A stretch of DNA of 39,264 nt from positions 1 through 39,264 of the IMG/VR virus record IMGVR_UViG_3300048597_000647; one strand, 5' to 3'. Of this stretch, positions 3,040 through 35,178 are shown in pieces. A program made the position numbers and the translations under genes. The stretch comes from a virus. The notes under the pieces were generated by a model. It ran no database searches. It saw only the letters and a program-made list of their open reading frames with translations, and had not been told where the DNA came from. Within the stretch, counting starts at the first letter, position 1. Each line of letters starts with the position of its first letter.

Positions 3040-3722
3040 GCCTTCCTCCCGAACATCGCCGCCAGCGCCCGCCGGAGCGCCGCCAGCCAGCCTCCGGCCT
3101 CCGGGGCGGGGACAGGTGCCGTGGGCGCCCTGCGCGCCGTCCCTGCCCGCTCCATGAGGCGCGCGAGATCCTTTCCGCTGATGGTCATGCGGTGGCGCAG
3201 CCGCCCGTCGCCGAGTGCGTCCCAGACCGCGATCCGGTCGCCGTTGGCGTCGTAGCTGCCGGTGCGGAACAGCGCCTCCTCGGCTTCGCGTCGCTTGCGG
3301 AGCTCCGGCGGGCGCAGCCACCCGAAGAAGTGCCGCGAAGCGTCTGGCGCCTTGGCGTTGATCGCCTCTGTCAGCTTGGCCCGGAGGATGCCGCCCGTGT
3401 TGAAGTCGAACGACACCAGCGCGTCGAACTGATGCGGCTTCAGCGGCACCTTGATCGCGCGGCGCACGCGGTCCTCGTAGGTGTCGAGGTCGGCGTCGAA
3501 GACCTGCACGGCGCGCACCAGCTCCTCCTGCACGCGCTGCTCGCCCCAGAGCCGGGTATCGACCTTCGGCATCTTCTCAGGGTTCAGCCCACCCGCGGCC
3601 TTGGTGTGGCCGACGCCGTAGGTCCAGATCCCCACGCTGTCCTTGTAGGGGCCGAGGACAATGCCCTCGTGTTCGGCGATCTCGAGGACGCCTTGCGGGG
3701 TGATCTTCACTTCCGCCCCCAT
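3036..3722 (-). CDS. Endolysin, glycoside hydrolase family 24 muramidase
   Basis: The product is 228 residues from ATG 3722; the frame is open further upstream, but that would overlap the holin gene almost wholly. The catalytic triad of T4-type lysozymes is visible with exact family spacing: E19-x8-D28-x5-T34, in HEG..., YKDSVG and TYGVGHT. Further family signs are the FDALVSFDFNTGG and FFGWLRPPELRKRREAE segments. It would cleave the MurNAc-GlcNAc bond of peptidoglycan. No signal peptide is seen, so release through the adjacent holin is expected. The last 70 or so residues are a basic, Ala/Pro-rich extension. Confidence 0.92.
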   Translation of the reverse strand: MGAEVKITPQGVLEIAEHEGIVLGPYKDSVGIWTYGVGHTKAAGGLNPEKMPKVDTRLWGEQRVQEELVRAVQVFDADLDTYEDRVRRAIKVPLKPHQFDALVSFDFNTGGILRAKLTEAINAKAPDASRHFFGWLRPPELRKRREAEEALFRTGSYDANGDRIAVWDALGDGRLRHRMTISGKDLARLMERAGTARRAPTAPVPAPEAGGWLAALRRALAAMFGRKA

Positions 3723-4897: not shown

Positions 4898-5904
4898 GCG
4901 GTGATCCTCACGCGGGCGGGTGTTCCGGGAATGGCGGCGTCGCCGGGGTTGCCGGTCATGACGAAGCGGTCAGGTGCGCCAACAAGAGCGACCGCGCGCG
5001 GCGCTCCGCTGAGGTTCGCGCCGCCGGGCTGGCCGCTGAGGCTGACGCGGGGCGGCTGGATCACGATCTCGAGCCGCGCTGTCGGCGCGTCGATGCCGTA
5101 GGACGTCAGAGCCACAGAGAGCCGGAGGACGCGGCGCACTGACACGTCCGGCCCGTCGATGGCGTAGTCGGTCGTGGGCGCGTCCAGCACGTAGCGCCGC
5201 GGCAGCGCGGGCGCGAAGGGCGTCAGGGCGTAGGCCGTGGCGGGAACGTCAAGCCGCCGCGTGACGGCCACGTCCGGCACCAGCGGGGACAGCGCGTAGG
5301 CCGTTGCGGGGACGTCGGCACGGATGGCCCGGCGCAGGTCAGGCGCGGGCGATGTGAGGCCGTAGGCGGTAGCGGGAACGGCCACCGTCCGCTGCACGGT
5401 GACGACCACATCCGGCGCGCTGATGGCGTAGGCCGTGGCCGGGACGGTGATGGTGGCAGCGGTCTGGAAGTCGGGCGCGGGAGCGGTCAGCGCGTAGGAG
5501 GTGGCGGGAACCGTGACCGTCTGGACGATCGAGACGTTCGGCGCAGGCAGCGTTAGGGTGTAGGCGGTCGCGGGCACGTCCCGGTCAATGTCCGGGTGCG
5601 CGTTGATCGTCGCCTCGCCCGCGCCTTCGGTGATGTCCCATGCGGGCGCGACGGCGACCTTCGGATACGACGTGATCTCCGCGGAGCCAGCGCCTTCCGT
5701 GATTGCCCACGCGCCGTAGGGCGGGAGGATCAGCGTAAGGTCAGGCGTCGGGCCGCTAAGCGTGTAGGATGTGGCGGGGACGTCAAGCGTGATGACGGCC
5801 GGCGAAAACGCTTCGCCGCGAAGGATTGCCCCTGCTGCGCCCGTGTCATCCCAGAGGTCAGCGCCGCCGCGATACCTCTGCCAGCCGTCTACGTAGTCGC
5901 TCAT
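4894..5904 (-). CDS. Repeat-rich appendage protein with VPATxYAL repeats
   Basis: The product is 336 residues. About nine copies of a motif near VPATAYALTxPAPxV occur at intervals of about 22-27 residues from residue 40 to residue 280. A second motif (AWxITEGAGxAxI) occurs twice near residues 68-105. The C-terminal 60 residues carry short LSGxPGGANLSGAP-type repeats. No signal peptide or membrane segment is seen. Such regular beta-type repeats in the fibre region suggest a rod or adhesin subunit. It overlaps both neighbours by four bases. A second protein with both motifs is at 10928-11893. Confidence 0.65.
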   Translation of the reverse strand: MSDYVDGWQRYRGGADLWDDTGAAGAILRGEAFSPAVITLDVPATSYTLSGPTPDLTLILPPYGAWAITEGAGSAEITSYPKVAVAPAWDITEGAGEATINAHPDIDRDVPATAYTLTLPAPNVSIVQTVTVPATSYALTAPAPDFQTAATITVPATAYAISAPDVVVTVQRTVAVPATAYGLTSPAPDLRRAIRADVPATAYALSPLVPDVAVTRRLDVPATAYALTPFAPALPRRYVLDAPTTDYAIDGPDVSVRRVLRLSVALTSYGIDAPTARLEIVIQPPRVSLSGQPGGANLSGAPRAVALVGAPDRFVMTGNPGDAAIPGTPARVRITA

Positions 5905-29966: not shown

Positions 29967-30847
29967 GTCCGCACCTCTCGCAGATGCACCGCCACGGCCC
30001 GCAGGCCCTCGCTGACGTGGTAGTCGTTGAAGTCCCCCAGCGACGGCGGCTGCACCCATGTGCGGCCCGAGCTGCGCGCGTAGAACTCGCCCGTGCCAAG
30101 CCCGCCCAGCGTCTCGACGGGCTTGTCGTGGTCCGCGGCGATCACGGCGCCGGGGATGCCCTGCGCGACCTTGGCGACGTTCGAAGCCGAGAACGCGGAC
30201 AGGACCGTCGCAGACCGCCCCAGAAGACGCAGCGCGGCCCGCACGCTGAGAGCGGTGGCGATGCCCTCGCAGACCCACGTCTCCGCCCCTGTGGCGATCC
30301 TGTGGCACGCTCCGCTCATCTGGCCGCCGAGAATGTTCTTCTTCTCGCCGCCGGCGGTGATAAACTGCACAGTGGTAATGGTCTGACCCACGCGGCCGGG
30401 CACGATCAGGAACGGCCCGTCAGCCTCCGGCAACGCCCGTGCAAGCCTTTCCGGCATCAGCGCGGCGGGATTTTCCAGCACAAGCCCAAGCTCGTCAGGG
30501 AAGCCCTTGCGGGCGAGGTAGGCGTGCCTCTCGGGCGTCGCGGCGGCGACGAGGCGGGCGCACACGGCGGCAACCTCGCGGCGCTCCTGCTCGCGCTGGC
30601 GGTCCCGCTCAGGGTCGCGGATGGGCTGATATGTGTCGGTCGCCTTGCCGTCGAGGAACACGGTCTTGCGGGCTTGTGTCTGCCAATTCACCGCGCTGAC
30701 GCGATCGCCCTCGATGATGACCTCGGCGTCGCCCTTGCCATTCCGCTCAAGCGTGTCCGTCCGCATCCACCGGCCCACGGTGCGCGCCCGCGGCGGCTTG
30801 ATGCCGAGCGCGTTGCATACGGCGTGCAGGGCGTCTTCCATCGTCAT
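29963..30847 (-). CDS. Toprim-domain primase-like protein
   Basis: The product is 294 residues from ATG 30847, overlapping the methyltransferase stop (ATGA). The N-terminal part (MTMEDALHAVCNALGI, WQTQARKTVFLDGKATDTY) matches phage primase leaders; the Toprim core is in ETWVCEGIATALSVRAAL (catalytic Glu) and PGAVIAADHDKP (acidic pair). No helicase motifs follow, so it is primase-only. It probably primes phage DNA synthesis with the helicase encoded two genes upstream. Confidence 0.85.
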   Translation of the reverse strand: MTMEDALHAVCNALGIKPPRARTVGRWMRTDTLERNGKGDAEVIIEGDRVSAVNWQTQARKTVFLDGKATDTYQPIRDPERDRQREQERREVAAVCARLVAAATPERHAYLARKGFPDELGLVLENPAALMPERLARALPEADGPFLIVPGRVGQTITTVQFITAGGEKKNILGGQMSGACHRIATGAETWVCEGIATALSVRAALRLLGRSATVLSAFSASNVAKVAQGIPGAVIAADHDKPVETLGGLGTGEFYARSSGRTWVQPPSLGDFNDYHVSEGLRAVAVHLREVRT

Positions 30848-32406
30848 TCTGCCGCCTCCATGCGCTCGACGGGCCACCGCTCCTCAACCATCCGCATCCG
30901 GTCGAAAATGACGCGCCCGCAGTTGACGGCCCACGAGTTGCCGAGGGCCTTGTAGCGGGGTCCGTCGGGGCAGGCGTCGGCGGTCTTGTTGCGGTAGGGG
31001 ATGCGGGTCCAGCCGTCTGGGAAGCCCATCAGGCGCTCGCATTCGAGGGGCGTGAGGCGGCGCACGGCCCACGGCTGCACGATGCCGTGGGCTTGGCCGG
31101 TATCGAGCGTCGGCGCGATCTCCTCGTAGATGCCGAGACCGGGGTCGCGCAGCCGCATCCGGCCTTCCGCGTCCGGGCTCATGGTCTTGGCCGTGCCTTC
31201 GCGCATCGCATCCGCGCGCACGCTGAACGCCACCGCCTGCGTCACCGTCCGCGCCTCGAGCGTGTAGGCCGCGCCGTCCGTGCGGATGCCTGCGCCGTTG
31301 GGGCCTGCGTTCGGGTTCTCGGAGACGGCGCGCTCCTCGATGGCGATGGGCACCAGCGGCGTCCCTCGGCCCGTGCCGTCCTCGCTCGCGTCAAAGCCCT
31401 CCCCGCGCAGGGCGTGAGCGACGGGGATCAGCGGCAGGCCGTCATCCGCGCCGTCAGATGACGGCCCCTTGTGGTCGCGGGCCTTCATGGCGGGGGAGAC
31501 GGACGGGATCAGCCCTCCGTCGCAGTCGAAGTCCGTCCCGAGGCCACCGCCCCCAAGGCTTCTTGCGGGGATGGTGGGAGCGACCAGCGCGTGCGGCTTG
31601 TCCCCGCCTCCCTGAGACGCCCTGAGCGCCGTCGCTATGTCTCCGGTGAGTTCGGCGGTTCCTCCGCCCTCCCTGCCACGGATTGCAACGCCAGCCGCAG
31701 AGCCTCGGGCAGATCCTTCCCGCGCTTCTCGGCGCGGCGGAGGATTCCCGCGCAGGCTTTCGCCGTCAAAAAGAACCGCCGCGGCACGTCGCCAGTCTCC
31801 AAGATATCCGACAACGAACACACGGCGCCGTCGCTGGGGGACCGCTCGGGGAAAGCCATGTGCTCGGGTGTATTGAGCGTCCAAGACGCGGTAGGCCCAC
31901 CCATACCCGAGTTCTGAAAGTCCGGCGAGGAAGCACCCGAAAGCATGTGTTTCGTGACCGTCGTGTTCGTCCTCAACCAGAACCTCTTTCCCGTCTTCGG
32001 GTCCGCCTGGACCGTCCAAGTCGATAGCCGGCGGACGCGGATCTGGTATGTCGTCGGTGGTGCTGGATAGGACGCCGGGGACGTTTTCCCAAACCACCCA
32101 TCTGGGCTTATAGCGTTCAGCAATGGCAAGGAAGGTGAGGGCGAGGTTGCCCCGCGGGTCATCAAGTCCCTTGCGAAGTCCCGCGACGCTGAAGCTCTGG
32201 CAGGGGGTTCCTCCGACGAGAACATCGACAGTTGCATCCGGCCACTCCTTGAAGCGGGTCATGTCGCCGAGGTTCACGGCGTGGGGGAAGCGGTGCGCGA
32301 GGACCGCGGAGGGGAATGGCTCGATCTCCGACTGATAGCGCCAGTCGATCCAAGGTGCGGACACCTCGGGAGCGCCGATCCCGCTGCAGACGGTCATGCC
32401 GATCAC
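30844..32406 (-). CDS. C5-cytosine DNA methyltransferase (Dcm-like)
   Basis: The product is 520 residues. Motif I CSGIGAPE (7-14), catalytic Cys69 in GGTPCQSFSVAG, ENVP (107-110), QRRRRVF (191-197), and after a long variable region RLTPLECERLMGFPDGWT and KALGNSW. The 250-residue part between has several similar motifs (ATALRAS, AHALRGEGFDASEDG, AYTLEAR), suggesting more than one target-recognition element. It would transfer methyl from SAM to cytosine C5, likely protecting phage DNA from restriction. A second ORF is embedded in another frame. Confidence 0.93.
   Translation of the reverse strand: MIGMTVCSGIGAPEVSAPWIDWRYQSEIEPFPSAVLAHRFPHAVNLGDMTRFKEWPDATVDVLVGGTPCQSFSVAGLRKGLDDPRGNLALTFLAIAERYKPRWVVWENVPGVLSSTTDDIPDPRPPAIDLDGPGGPEDGKEVLVEDEHDGHETHAFGCFLAGLSELGYGWAYRVLDAQYTRAHGFPRAVPQRRRRVFVVGYLGDWRRAAAVLFDGESLRGNPPPRREAREGSARGSAAGVAIRGREGGGTAELTGDIATALRASQGGGDKPHALVAPTIPARSLGGGGLGTDFDCDGGLIPSVSPAMKARDHKGPSSDGADDGLPLIPVAHALRGEGFDASEDGTGRGTPLVPIAIEERAVSENPNAGPNGAGIRTDGAAYTLEARTVTQAVAFSVRADAMREGTAKTMSPDAEGRMRLRDPGLGIYEEIAPTLDTGQAHGIVQPWAVRRLTPLECERLMGFPDGWTRIPYRNKTADACPDGPRYKALGNSWAVNCGRVIFDRMRMVEERWPVERMEAAE
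31635..32237 (-). CDS. Possible overprinted ORF inside the methyltransferase gene
   Basis: A 200-codon ORF in the +1 frame relative to the methyltransferase, covering its residues about 57-257. Start ATG 32237 has AAGGAG 7 bases upstream. The protein begins MQLSMFSSEEPPARASASRD and ends with a helical, protein-like region (VCSLSDILETGDVPRRFF, LTAKACAGILRRAEKRGKDLP). I recall similar hypothetical proteins annotated beside phage cytosine methyltransferases. Conservation could reflect the host frame only, so reality is unproven. Confidence 0.5.
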   Translation of the reverse strand: MQLSMFSSEEPPARASASRDFARDLMTRGATSPSPSLPLLNAISPDGWFGKTSPASYPAPPTTYQIRVRRLSTWTVQADPKTGKRFWLRTNTTVTKHMLSGASSPDFQNSGMGGPTASWTLNTPEHMAFPERSPSDGAVCSLSDILETGDVPRRFFLTAKACAGILRRAEKRGKDLPEALRLALQSVAGRAEEPPNSPET

Positions 32407-33959
32407 GCCGCCCTCGCTTTCCGATACCGCTTCACCTCGCGGTCAATCAGCGCATAGGCGTTCTGATCGCACCCTTGAGGCACCGGCATGTCATACCAGC
32501 CGAACGGCAGCTTTCCGTTCGGGTAGATGTCTCGGAACACGCCATACGCCCACTTGCGGGCGTGGTCCTCGCCCTTGCGCGTCCGCTCTGCGGTGTAGGC
32601 CAGCGCGGCTGTCCAGACGACGCGCGGGTCCTTGAGGCAGTCCGCCCGCAGTCCCGGCCGCGCCTCCATCGCCTGCGCCAGGCTGAACTCGTGAAGCTCG
32701 CCCTCGACCGCGTGCACGCCCGAGCGCGCGGGCTTTTCCCAGCCACATGACATGCACGTGTTGCCGCGCAGCGCGCCCGAGCATTCCGGGCACACGACCT
32801 TCTTCCGCTCTTCGGTGTTGCGCTCCCGCGGCTTGCTGTCCCGCTTCTCCGCGTGGCTCAATTCGCCCGCGCCGTTTTCCCACACGTCGAACATGTCCAG
32901 CGCGAACCGCTCGATGTTCCCGGAGTGGCAGAGCCAGAGCTTCGTCGGCGTAGACGGGTGCGTCCGCATCACCCGCCCGATCTCCTGCATGTGGCTCGAC
33001 AGGCTCTTGCGATAAGGCCGGCACGAGATGCCCACCGCGACGTCCGGCACGTCGAAACCCTTGGTGAGCACCCCGCAAGACACCAGCCCGTGAATGAGGC
33101 TGTCAGGACGCCGAAACTCCGCGATCTTCTCCGCCCTCGCTGCGTCGTCACGGTCGAGGTAGCTGATCTGCTGAAAGTTGAAACCCGCCGCCGCGAACGC
33201 CGCGCAGAGCTCGCGCCCGTGCTCGACCGTGGGCGAAAAGACGATGGTCTTCGCAGGCCCGCCGAAGTGCTCGCGCGTCTTCGTGATCCACTCCGTCACC
33301 ACGTCGCCGATGATCTGGATGCCGGCGGCGGTCGCGCTGGCGTCGCTGAACTCGCCGTAGCTATTGAGGCCGAGCTCGGCATCCTCCGGCGAGCGGGCGA
33401 CATAGATCTTCGGCTCGACCAAGTGCCCGCCCTCGATCAGCTTCCGCGTCGGGATGACGTTCACCACGCCGCCCCACGTCTTCCCCATGCCAGCCGTGAA
33501 CGGCGTCGCCGTCAGGCCAATGCACACGGCCGACGGGTTCCTGTCCATGAACTCGAGCGTGGCCCGATACTGGCAATGCGCCTCGTCCACGATGATGAGC
33601 GACGGCTGACGCGGAAGCGACCGGCGGGCCAGCGTCTGCGCGCTGCACACCTGCACGTTCTCCCGCGGCGCCCATCGCGGATGATCGCCCTGCACCACCC
33701 CGTGCGCGATGCCGTATTCCTCAAAGACCGCGCTCGTCTGATCCACCAGCGCCACCCGATCCACGATGAAGAGCGTGTAGCTTCCCTTCTGCGCGGCCTC
33801 GTTCAGGATGTGGGCCGAGGTCAGCGTCTTTCCCGCGCCCGTCCCGGCGACGAGAAGCTGGCGCTTCTTGCCCGCGCGGATGCCCTCGCGCAGCGCCTCG
33901 ACTGCGGCGCGCTGGTAGTCGCGCAACTCAATGGCCTTGGGCGGGCGGAGGTTCAGCAT
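32403..33959 (-). CDS. SF2 DEAD/DEAH-box helicase
   Basis: The product is 518 residues from ATG 33959, overlapping the upstream stop. RDYQ motif at 13-16; Walker A GTGAGKT (39-45); DEAH (125-128); GLTATP motif III; C-terminal domain with TKGFDVPDVAVGISCRPYRKS and QEIGRVMR motif VI. After the helicase core a Cys4 element (CPEC...CMSC) and a C-terminal 100-residue domain follow. Probably unwinds DNA in phage replication or recombination; resembles the RAD25/UvrB-type phage helicases. Confidence 0.93.
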   Translation of the reverse strand: MLNLRPPKAIELRDYQRAAVEALREGIRAGKKRQLLVAGTGAGKTLTSAHILNEAAQKGSYTLFIVDRVALVDQTSAVFEEYGIAHGVVQGDHPRWAPRENVQVCSAQTLARRSLPRQPSLIIVDEAHCQYRATLEFMDRNPSAVCIGLTATPFTAGMGKTWGGVVNVIPTRKLIEGGHLVEPKIYVARSPEDAELGLNSYGEFSDASATAAGIQIIGDVVTEWITKTREHFGGPAKTIVFSPTVEHGRELCAAFAAAGFNFQQISYLDRDDAARAEKIAEFRRPDSLIHGLVSCGVLTKGFDVPDVAVGISCRPYRKSLSSHMQEIGRVMRTHPSTPTKLWLCHSGNIERFALDMFDVWENGAGELSHAEKRDSKPRERNTEERKKVVCPECSGALRGNTCMSCGWEKPARSGVHAVEGELHEFSLAQAMEARPGLRADCLKDPRVVWTAALAYTAERTRKGEDHARKWAYGVFRDIYPNGKLPFGWYDMPVPQGCDQNAYALIDREVKRYRKARAA

Positions 33960-34927
33960 CACTCTGCCGCCTCCATGAACATGTCCGGTGTGTCGCCTGC
34001 GATGCTCGCCACGCGGGCGGGGATCAGCGCGGCATACTCCGGGTTCAGCTCGCAGAGGATCGCGCGCCGCCCGTGCTTCACGGCCACGCCTGCAGTCGTG
34101 CCGCTGCCGCCGAAGGGGTCGAGCACGGTGCCGCCCTTCGGCGCTCCTGCGAGGATGCAGGGCTCGATCAGGTCGGGCGGAAAGGTGGCGAAGTGGCCGT
34201 CCTTGTAAGGCGAAGGGCTGACAGACCACACCGACCGCTTGCGGCGCGTCTCGCGCACCACGATCTCGCGATCGACACCGGGCCGCTTACGGGCCGCGTT
34301 GGGGTCGGCATCGGCCAAGTCGCGGAACGCCTTCCCGGCCTTGCGCTTGAGGCCAGGATAGGCGGACGGCTCTTCAATAGCGAGGTAGTCGTAGTAGTAG
34401 ACCGGCGACTTGGCGAAGAGGTAGATCATCTCGTGCGCCGACACGGTTCGGTCCTTGACCGGGTGCGGTGTTGGCCTTGGTTTGTGCCAGACGATCTCGT
34501 CGCGGAGCCACCATCCGTCGGCTTGAAGCGCCAGCGCCGTGCGCGCGGGGATCATCATCCGGTCTTTGCGCTTCAAGCCCTGCGGAGGCGGCGCCCACTT
34601 CCCGCCGCGCGGCCCCGTCGTGTCTGCGCCAGCCGAGGCCCACCTCTCGCCTTGCGCTCCGCCGCCGCTCTTTCCGGTCCCGGCGTAGCTATCCCCAAGG
34701 TTCAGCCACAGCGTCCCGTCTTCGCGCAGCACCCGCCGCACTTCGCGGAACACCTCCACCAGCTTCGCCACGAAGGCGTCCGGCGTCTCCTCCAATCCGA
34801 TCTGCCCCTCGTGCCCGTAGTCGCGCAGCCCGAAGTAGGGCGGCGAGGTCACGCAGGTGTGGGCCGATCCGGCGGGCAGGCCGCGCATCTGTTCAATGCA
34901 GTCGCCGAGGAGGACGGTGTACCTCAC
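33959..34927 (-). CDS. DNA N4-cytosine/N6-adenine methyltransferase
   Basis: The product is 322 residues from GTG 34927, overlapping the upstream stop (GTGA). Motif IV TSPPYFGLRDYG (27-38) comes first and the SAM-binding FGGSG motif, DPFGGSGTT (270-278), last, the order of class beta enzymes. The region between contains a variable target part. SPPY enzymes include N4-cytosine and N6-adenine methylases; which one cannot be told here. Likely an anti-restriction function with the C5 enzyme. Confidence 0.92.
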   Translation of the reverse strand: MRYTVLLGDCIEQMRGLPAGSAHTCVTSPPYFGLRDYGHEGQIGLEETPDAFVAKLVEVFREVRRVLREDGTLWLNLGDSYAGTGKSGGGAQGERWASAGADTTGPRGGKWAPPPQGLKRKDRMMIPARTALALQADGWWLRDEIVWHKPRPTPHPVKDRTVSAHEMIYLFAKSPVYYYDYLAIEEPSAYPGLKRKAGKAFRDLADADPNAARKRPGVDREIVVRETRRKRSVWSVSPSPYKDGHFATFPPDLIEPCILAGAPKGGTVLDPFGGSGTTAGVAVKHGRRAILCELNPEYAALIPARVASIAGDTPDMFMEAAE

Positions 34928-35178
34928 CCCATAACCTCCCGATACGCTTCCCGCTCTGCCGTGGCCCGGTCCTGCCCGCCGTCGAACTCGCGGATCGCCG
35001 CCCGCTCCCCCCACGCATCCGCCTCGGGCCAGACCTCGCGCAAGAGCGCCGCCTTCCGCCGGGAATCGCGCAGCCATGCCAGCGCGTCGTCCGACAGCCG
35101 TCCGCGACGCAGCGTCAGCCGCCATTCATCGCGAATGACCTCGCCGCCGTGGGCGCGGATGCGGGCGAGGATGCTCAC
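34924..35178 (-). CDS. Small helical protein with TubC-like docking pattern
   Basis: The product is 84 residues, overlapping both neighbours (ATGA upstream, GTGA downstream). It reads SILARIRAHGGEVIRDEWRLTL ... GRLSDDALAWLRDSRRKAALL, a pattern like the TubC N-terminal docking domain found in small phage proteins, followed by AAIREFDGGQDRATAEREAY, which is common in phage early genes. It may link partner enzymes of the replication cluster; this is inference. Confidence 0.6.
   Translation of the reverse strand: MSILARIRAHGGEVIRDEWRLTLRRGRLSDDALAWLRDSRRKAALLREVWPEADAWGERAAIREFDGGQDRATAEREAYREVMG

Follow-up and report, generated by a model that had tools for sequence, protein, structure and literature searches.

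M.AquI and M.EcoHK31I are natural C5-cytosine methyltransferases made of two polypeptides (PMC3404938). Mycobacteriophage methylases with a ShiLan-type HNH insertion, which lies out of frame, are a described case of a second reading frame within a phage methylase gene (PMC11855218). Here, we analyzed the IMG/VR virus record IMGVR_UViG_3300048597_000647 (positions 1 to 39,264; "the window" below means this whole stretch of 39,264 nucleotides), in which a C5 methyltransferase gene encloses, on the same strand and in its +1 frame, a second open reading frame (ORF) of 200 codons. Judging from its homologues, the nested ORF is almost certainly protein-coding. We propose, with a probability of about 0.6, that its product is a piece of the methyltransferase displaced into another frame, which would act in trans on the surrounding enzyme as a subunit or regulator.

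An open reading frame nested in a C5 methyltransferase gene

The features of the locus are as follows.

30844..32406, minus strand: C5-cytosine methyltransferase, main frame, 520 aa (PF00145, E=1.1e-35, cut-off passed)
31635..32237, minus strand: nested +1-frame gene, 200 aa, ATG at 32235-32237 (ORF reading, homologues and purifying selection)
32245..32250, minus strand: Shine-Dalgarno sequence AAGGAG with a 7-nt spacer to the ATG (recurs before homologous starts in many lineages)
32259..32261, minus strand: in-frame TGA, 7 codons above the ATG, closing the +1 frame (sequence reading)
31665..31838, minus strand: aa 134-191 of the nested protein, its conserved C-terminal domain, predicted to form three helices (conservation and structure model)
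31737..31820, minus strand: aa 140-167 of the nested protein, CSLSDILETGDVPRRFFLTAKACAGILR, homologous to the in-frame post-motif-VIII segment of ordinary C5 methyltransferases (profile comparisons)

A first-pass annotation had picked out this ORF and the AAGGAG seven bases from its ATG, and both were reproduced, as was the register (32406-32237 = 169 = 1 mod 3). The window's AAGGAG doubles as the Lys-Glu codons of methyltransferase FKEWP; its relatives carry AAGGAG(TGG) or AAGGA at the same place before the start, where the bases double as methyltransferase Lys-Glu-Trp, and most of them read GCG-ACA-TGA at the site of the closing stop. The nested start lies ~40 codons further in in P1/Vibrio-type genes and ~47 in the Bacillota group, often with a GGAG-like site of its own, and the family length is ~130-200 codons. 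The N-terminus of the nested protein is variable by lineage; the C-terminal domain is fixed.

ORF length is not what identifies the gene. When the synonymous codons of the window gene were permuted, ~11% of the versions were likewise stop-free (P about 0.11), so that in a gene of 68% GC the length alone is not significant. The nested ORF is regarded as real because of comparative evidence, namely register, selection and constraint. Over 103 clusters, codon permutation led us to expect 337 stops in the +1 frame.

Distribution of the nested gene and selection on the +1 frame

A tblastn search with the +1 protein of the window returned 125 phage records, some with 60-70% identity over the C-terminal 50 residues, and a Vibrio member as query returned 167, including phage P1 dmt, phage P7 and RCS47. 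Searches of IMG/VR and GTDB contigs added at least hundreds of further loci among the matches listed. Among the listed IMG/VR, GTDB and phage matches, 456 loci hold both genes, and in all 456 the homologous +1 ORF occupies one and the same register inside the methyltransferase. A set gathered with the methyltransferase as query, and so blind to the +1 frame, agrees: the ORF is missing only from two contigs that end before it. Another 12 matches in bacterial genomes, read directly, have the same nested arrangement. Three bacterial loci (L471, L473 and L479) were rejected as broken copies, since on direct reading they are intact and their stops lie outside the ORF. Carriers are phages and prophages of Pseudomonadota, Acidobacteriota, Verrucomicrobiota, Planctomycetota, Bacillota and Actinomycetota. 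In a test for a single origin, the ORF-bearing methyltransferases cluster on the tree (6 changes vs 13 with shuffled labels), on which the deep nodes are weak. Co-occurrence of the nested ORF and the methyltransferase is strict: no free-standing functional copy, and no phage with the ORF and without the methylase as the first-pass annotation had envisaged, was found among ~460 IMG/VR, GTDB and phage loci and 694 sampled genomes.

We then took pairs of related methyltransferases and sorted their single-base differences by what each does in the two frames, following the logic of OLGenie (PMC7531306). Within the ORF, changes silent in the methyltransferase are 3-fold rarer when they alter the +1 residue than when they leave it unchanged (dSN/dSS 0.33), and among methyltransferase-changing differences those that alter the +1 residue are 4-fold rarer (dNN/dNS 0.24); the pairs are non-independent, so these and the following ratios are effect sizes and not formal p-values. 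In the flanks up- and downstream of the ORF, dSN/dSS is 1.9-3.9 and dNN/dNS 0.9-1.7. A fixed region, beginning 40 codons past PCQ and ending 30 codons past motif VIII, was used for comparison with controls. There, ORF-bearing enzymes give a dSN/dSS of 0.31 and a dNN/dNS of 0.21, with 0 stop-creating silent changes at 4,914 sites, compared with 1.26, 2.45 and 6.6% stop-creating changes for the +2 frame of the same enzymes and 1.90, 1.06 and 11.9% for methyltransferases without the ORF. The +1 protein is thus under purifying selection.

Both halves of the nested protein are selected. In the N-terminal half dSN/dSS is 0.41 and dNN/dNS 0.42, with 4 stop-creating changes at 3,276 sites, which argues for a translation start ahead of the C-terminal domain; within this domain, the +1 protein is if anything more constrained than the methyltransferase frame. 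Synonymous conservation rises from ~0.5 to 0.65-0.90 inside the ORF, increasing near the start, and falls to ~0.47 at the ORF stop. The dual coding suggested by the first-pass annotation is strongly supported by the single register in 456 loci and by this selection. The signs that it had named as speaking against the idea, stops in homologues and a lack of synonymous constraint, were not seen: an internal stop occurs in one sequence only (L033 = L110), and the constraint ends where the ORF does.

The nested ORF is almost never annotated, even in phage P1, and is otherwise called "DNA methyltransferase". In 6 of 8 records, PHROG 16143 ("DNA methyltransferase", 139 positions) matches the +1 frame instead of the main frame, and it matches 36 of 41 aligned +1 members (best 5.1e-11; the window itself weakly, E=0.0098). 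Judging from these profile matches, PHROG 16143 is the nested +1 family under the name of the surrounding gene. Thibault gp104 is an annotated C-terminal piece of the nested ORF, left by an HNH insertion. The first-pass annotation's mention of similar hypothetical proteins near phage methylases was therefore right in a sense, in that PHROG 16143 and gp104 are the nested +1 frame itself.

Several loci depart from the common arrangement. In Thibault (L495, 1175-2007) and KashFlow (L497, 675-2198), the ShiLan-type HNH insertion in Omega-group methylases also splits the nested +1 ORF, the C-terminal part of which is still 76-79% identical to Lucky2013. Single frameshifts disrupt dmt and the nested ORF together in two E. 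coli IncY/P1-type plasmids (L493, L494). In Vibrio phage 1.267.O (L490, 1486-1977) and its relatives (H263-H270; Vibrio lentus phages) the methyltransferase is truncated after ~163 codons and only the first part of the nested ORF is retained. In L235 (2470-3202), a deletion has made motifs IX-X of the methyltransferase an in-frame continuation of the nested protein; this fusion is probably a damaged gene. Two actinophage C5 methyltransferases near the nested-ORF clade put the same +1 register to different use. In Mycobacterium phage Charm (L503, 905-1931), gp79 is read in +1 from a start within gp80 and contains the target recognition domain (TRD) and motifs IX-X, and in Geralt (L487, 1751-2266) the +1 frame after motif VIII codes for LPTP-type repeats resembling the TRD repeats of its main frame. 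These are possibly further frame-displaced methyltransferase pieces.

Origin of the C-terminal domain and possible roles of the nested protein

The C-terminal part of the nested protein had been described as looking like a folded helical protein (CSLSDILETGDVP..GILRRAEKRGKDLP). It coincides with the conserved region and is modeled as three helices with a per-residue confidence (pLDDT) of about 87-97; a peptide to be expected from the +1 protein is YFLSSKACAGILR. The domain consensus, SLSDILETGxVPQRYFLSAKACxGILRRAEKRGKxLP, resembles the in-frame segment that follows motif VIII in other C5 methyltransferases, for example TRVGDILEDADDSYTLSDNAWKGFRERKERNKANG in a T4-like phage enzyme, and likewise in Dcm. 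A profile-profile comparison of the +1 domain with this canonical segment gave E=3.2e-6 and a score of 33.5, against 14.4 for the best of 100 column shuffles and 9.2 for the reversed profile, and matches to the canonical segment lie mostly 27-32 residues (~28) past motif VIII. The equivalent residues of M.HhaI are about 192-212, the passage from the large domain into the TRD. A reciprocal profile, built only from methyltransferases without the ORF, found 454 of the 456 +1 ORFs (median 13.6 bits, maximum 25.2), whereas main frames reached at most 1.0 bit and the best other ORF in the same loci 8.8 bits. The segment is thus absent from the main frame of this clade, which has lost it there and keeps it in the nested gene, where it starts ~7 codons after the motif VIII glutamine. 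A PADLOC match to MTase_II at 0.0039 in 5 members fits this reading. A pure de novo gene by overprinting was rejected on account of the homology; only the N-terminal half fits that description.

For a two-subunit C5 methyltransferase in general, the small polypeptide holds a canonical segment missing from the large one, as is the case here, and because natural two-polypeptide enzymes exist (PMC3404938), association in trans is plausible. We give an even chance to an ancient split by frame, in which the canonical segment disappeared from the main frame but persisted as a +1 protein with a start of its own, joining the enzyme again in trans. Such a split could have arisen if a frame-changing deletion behind motif VIII, compensated later, had placed the segment beside motif VIII out of frame; the main frame would then read new sequence there, and the former frame would live on as a protein initiated independently. 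Ribosomes would start the nested protein at its own binding site within the methyltransferase mRNA, so that one transcript would yield both proteins. The N-terminal half is overprinted on methyltransferase motifs IV-VIII, and the C-terminal domain (~50 aa) would be the enzyme's own "DILE..YxLS..K" segment and not a de novo sequence. The nested protein would most likely dock where the segment would sit, at the junction of catalytic domain and TRD, and there complete, activate or tune the enzyme. We infer the displacement by deletion, the docking in trans and the direction of the effect (as a subunit or as a brake); activation, altered specificity and a brake are all candidate outcomes.

Several points weigh against a displaced piece acting in trans. 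Co-occurrence is partly forced by the nesting itself; the main frame, which retains PCQ and motifs VIII, IX and X, may suffice for activity, and catalysis may not need the segment; and the shared segment is short, about 26 columns. A fold search of the PDB, with the whole model and with the domain alone, gave no significant match, and no protein, footprint or phenotype is known for the nested ORF. In a viral structure library only Thibault gp104 and one annotated methyltransferase were matched, IHF/HU-like fold matches were discarded as noise (E>1), and sequence searches of Pfam, NCBIfam, PADLOC and PDB gave no usable match for function.

A less likely alternative, although one worth weighing, is that the gene is genuine while its protein works elsewhere: it might, for instance, counter restriction, regulate phage genes or antagonize a host enzyme, and the segment homology would then be a relic of its origin. 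Such a role would suit a main-frame methyltransferase that looks complete, from PCQ through VIII, IX and X, and a C-terminal domain that is a small, often basic helical module that could bind nucleic acid or another protein. However, the nested protein was never found apart from the methyltransferase, its methyltransferase-like residues are strongly retained, and it matched no anti-restriction, DNA-binding or defence family in Pfam, NCBIfam or PADLOC. The anti-restriction role offered by the first-pass annotation thus found no backing in these collections; methylase control, its other suggestion, is still a candidate role, and the segment homology points to a methyltransferase partner.

Programmed frameshifting is a far weaker explanation, and we consider it improbable. 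The displaced segment begins so close behind motif VIII that a slip into +1 there would join it to the catalytic domain in cis. Yet selection on the +1 frame extends well upstream of motif VIII (the N-terminal dNN/dNS above), and a start with its ribosome-binding site is found at the corresponding position in many lineages. The hybrid would moreover stop after ~50 residues, without TRD or motifs IX-X, and no slippery site was identified, although no systematic search for one was made. That there is no gene at all, and that GC content with methyltransferase constraint or an RNA or DNA element keeps the frame open, is hardly credible: the ORF length in the window alone is not significant, but the +1 frame stays open in hosts as low as 37-50% GC, methyltransferase-silent changes are filtered by their +1 amino-acid effect and not uniformly, the +2 frame and canonical methyltransferases show no such pattern, and the 456-locus register, codon permutation and controlled selection ratios rule out a chance ORF.

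The window is a phage record, with genes for a lambda-type portal, capsid/protease and GpA terminase. Its C5 methyltransferase gene, read with motifs IV (PCQS), VIII (PQRRRRVF), IX (RRLTPLECERLMGFPD) and X (GNS), belongs by these and by PF00145 to the C5-cytosine family. It lies inside a cluster of Toprim, ResIII/DEAD helicase and N4/N6 methyltransferase genes; directly upstream, at 32403-35125, are the N4/N6 DNA methyltransferase and the ResIII/DEAD-type helicase, with short overlaps. The phage thus has two methyltransferases in one cluster.

Comparison with described systems

We found no description of this overlap in phage methyltransferases in the open-access literature. Among DNA phages, few long nested genes on the same strand have been shown to be under selection, and this one crosses several bacterial phyla within one of the most familiar enzyme families, P1 dmt included; the P1 dmt constructs used so far probably carried both genes unknowingly. 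It is also one of the few instances in which the path leading to a nested gene can be traced in the sequence, and since the origin of the C-terminal domain is traceable to the enzyme itself, it provides a concrete and testable idea of function.

The annotation of PHROG 16143 makes no mention of an overlap or of the segment homology, and the nested ORF is not mentioned in the passages of the ShiLan insertion paper (PMC11855218). The ShiLan-type insertion resembles the nested ORF in placing a second reading frame inside a phage methylase gene, but it is a homing insertion and not a conserved overlap of methyltransferase codons (PMC11855218). In Dcm and M.HhaI, the segment after motif VIII (VKDLLLPDSEVEHLVIDR in M.HhaI) corresponds to the C-terminal domain of the nested protein; enzymes of this type hold it in cis, whereas the nested-ORF clade has it in the other frame and in another polypeptide.

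Like the favored reading of the present locus, M.AquI alpha/beta is a C5 methyltransferase in two polypeptides (PMC3404938), but it is a tandem split in the variable region, with motifs IX-X on beta and no full nesting. M.EcoHK31I is likewise similar in that its small polypeptide provides a piece that its large polypeptide lacks (PMC3404938). It differs in that its small subunit supplies motif IX, whereas the nested protein carries the post-motif-VIII segment, and in being one restriction-modification system, whereas the nested arrangement is found across phages. The small gene of M.EcoHK31I reportedly sits inside the large one, in a different reading frame. An enzyme strictly of the M.EcoHK31I or M.AquI kind, in which the small polypeptide supplies a missing motif IX (and X), was rejected for the nested locus, since the main frame itself holds both motifs. 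We rate the arrangement as a combination of two known kinds, an overlapping gene and a two-polypeptide methyltransferase.
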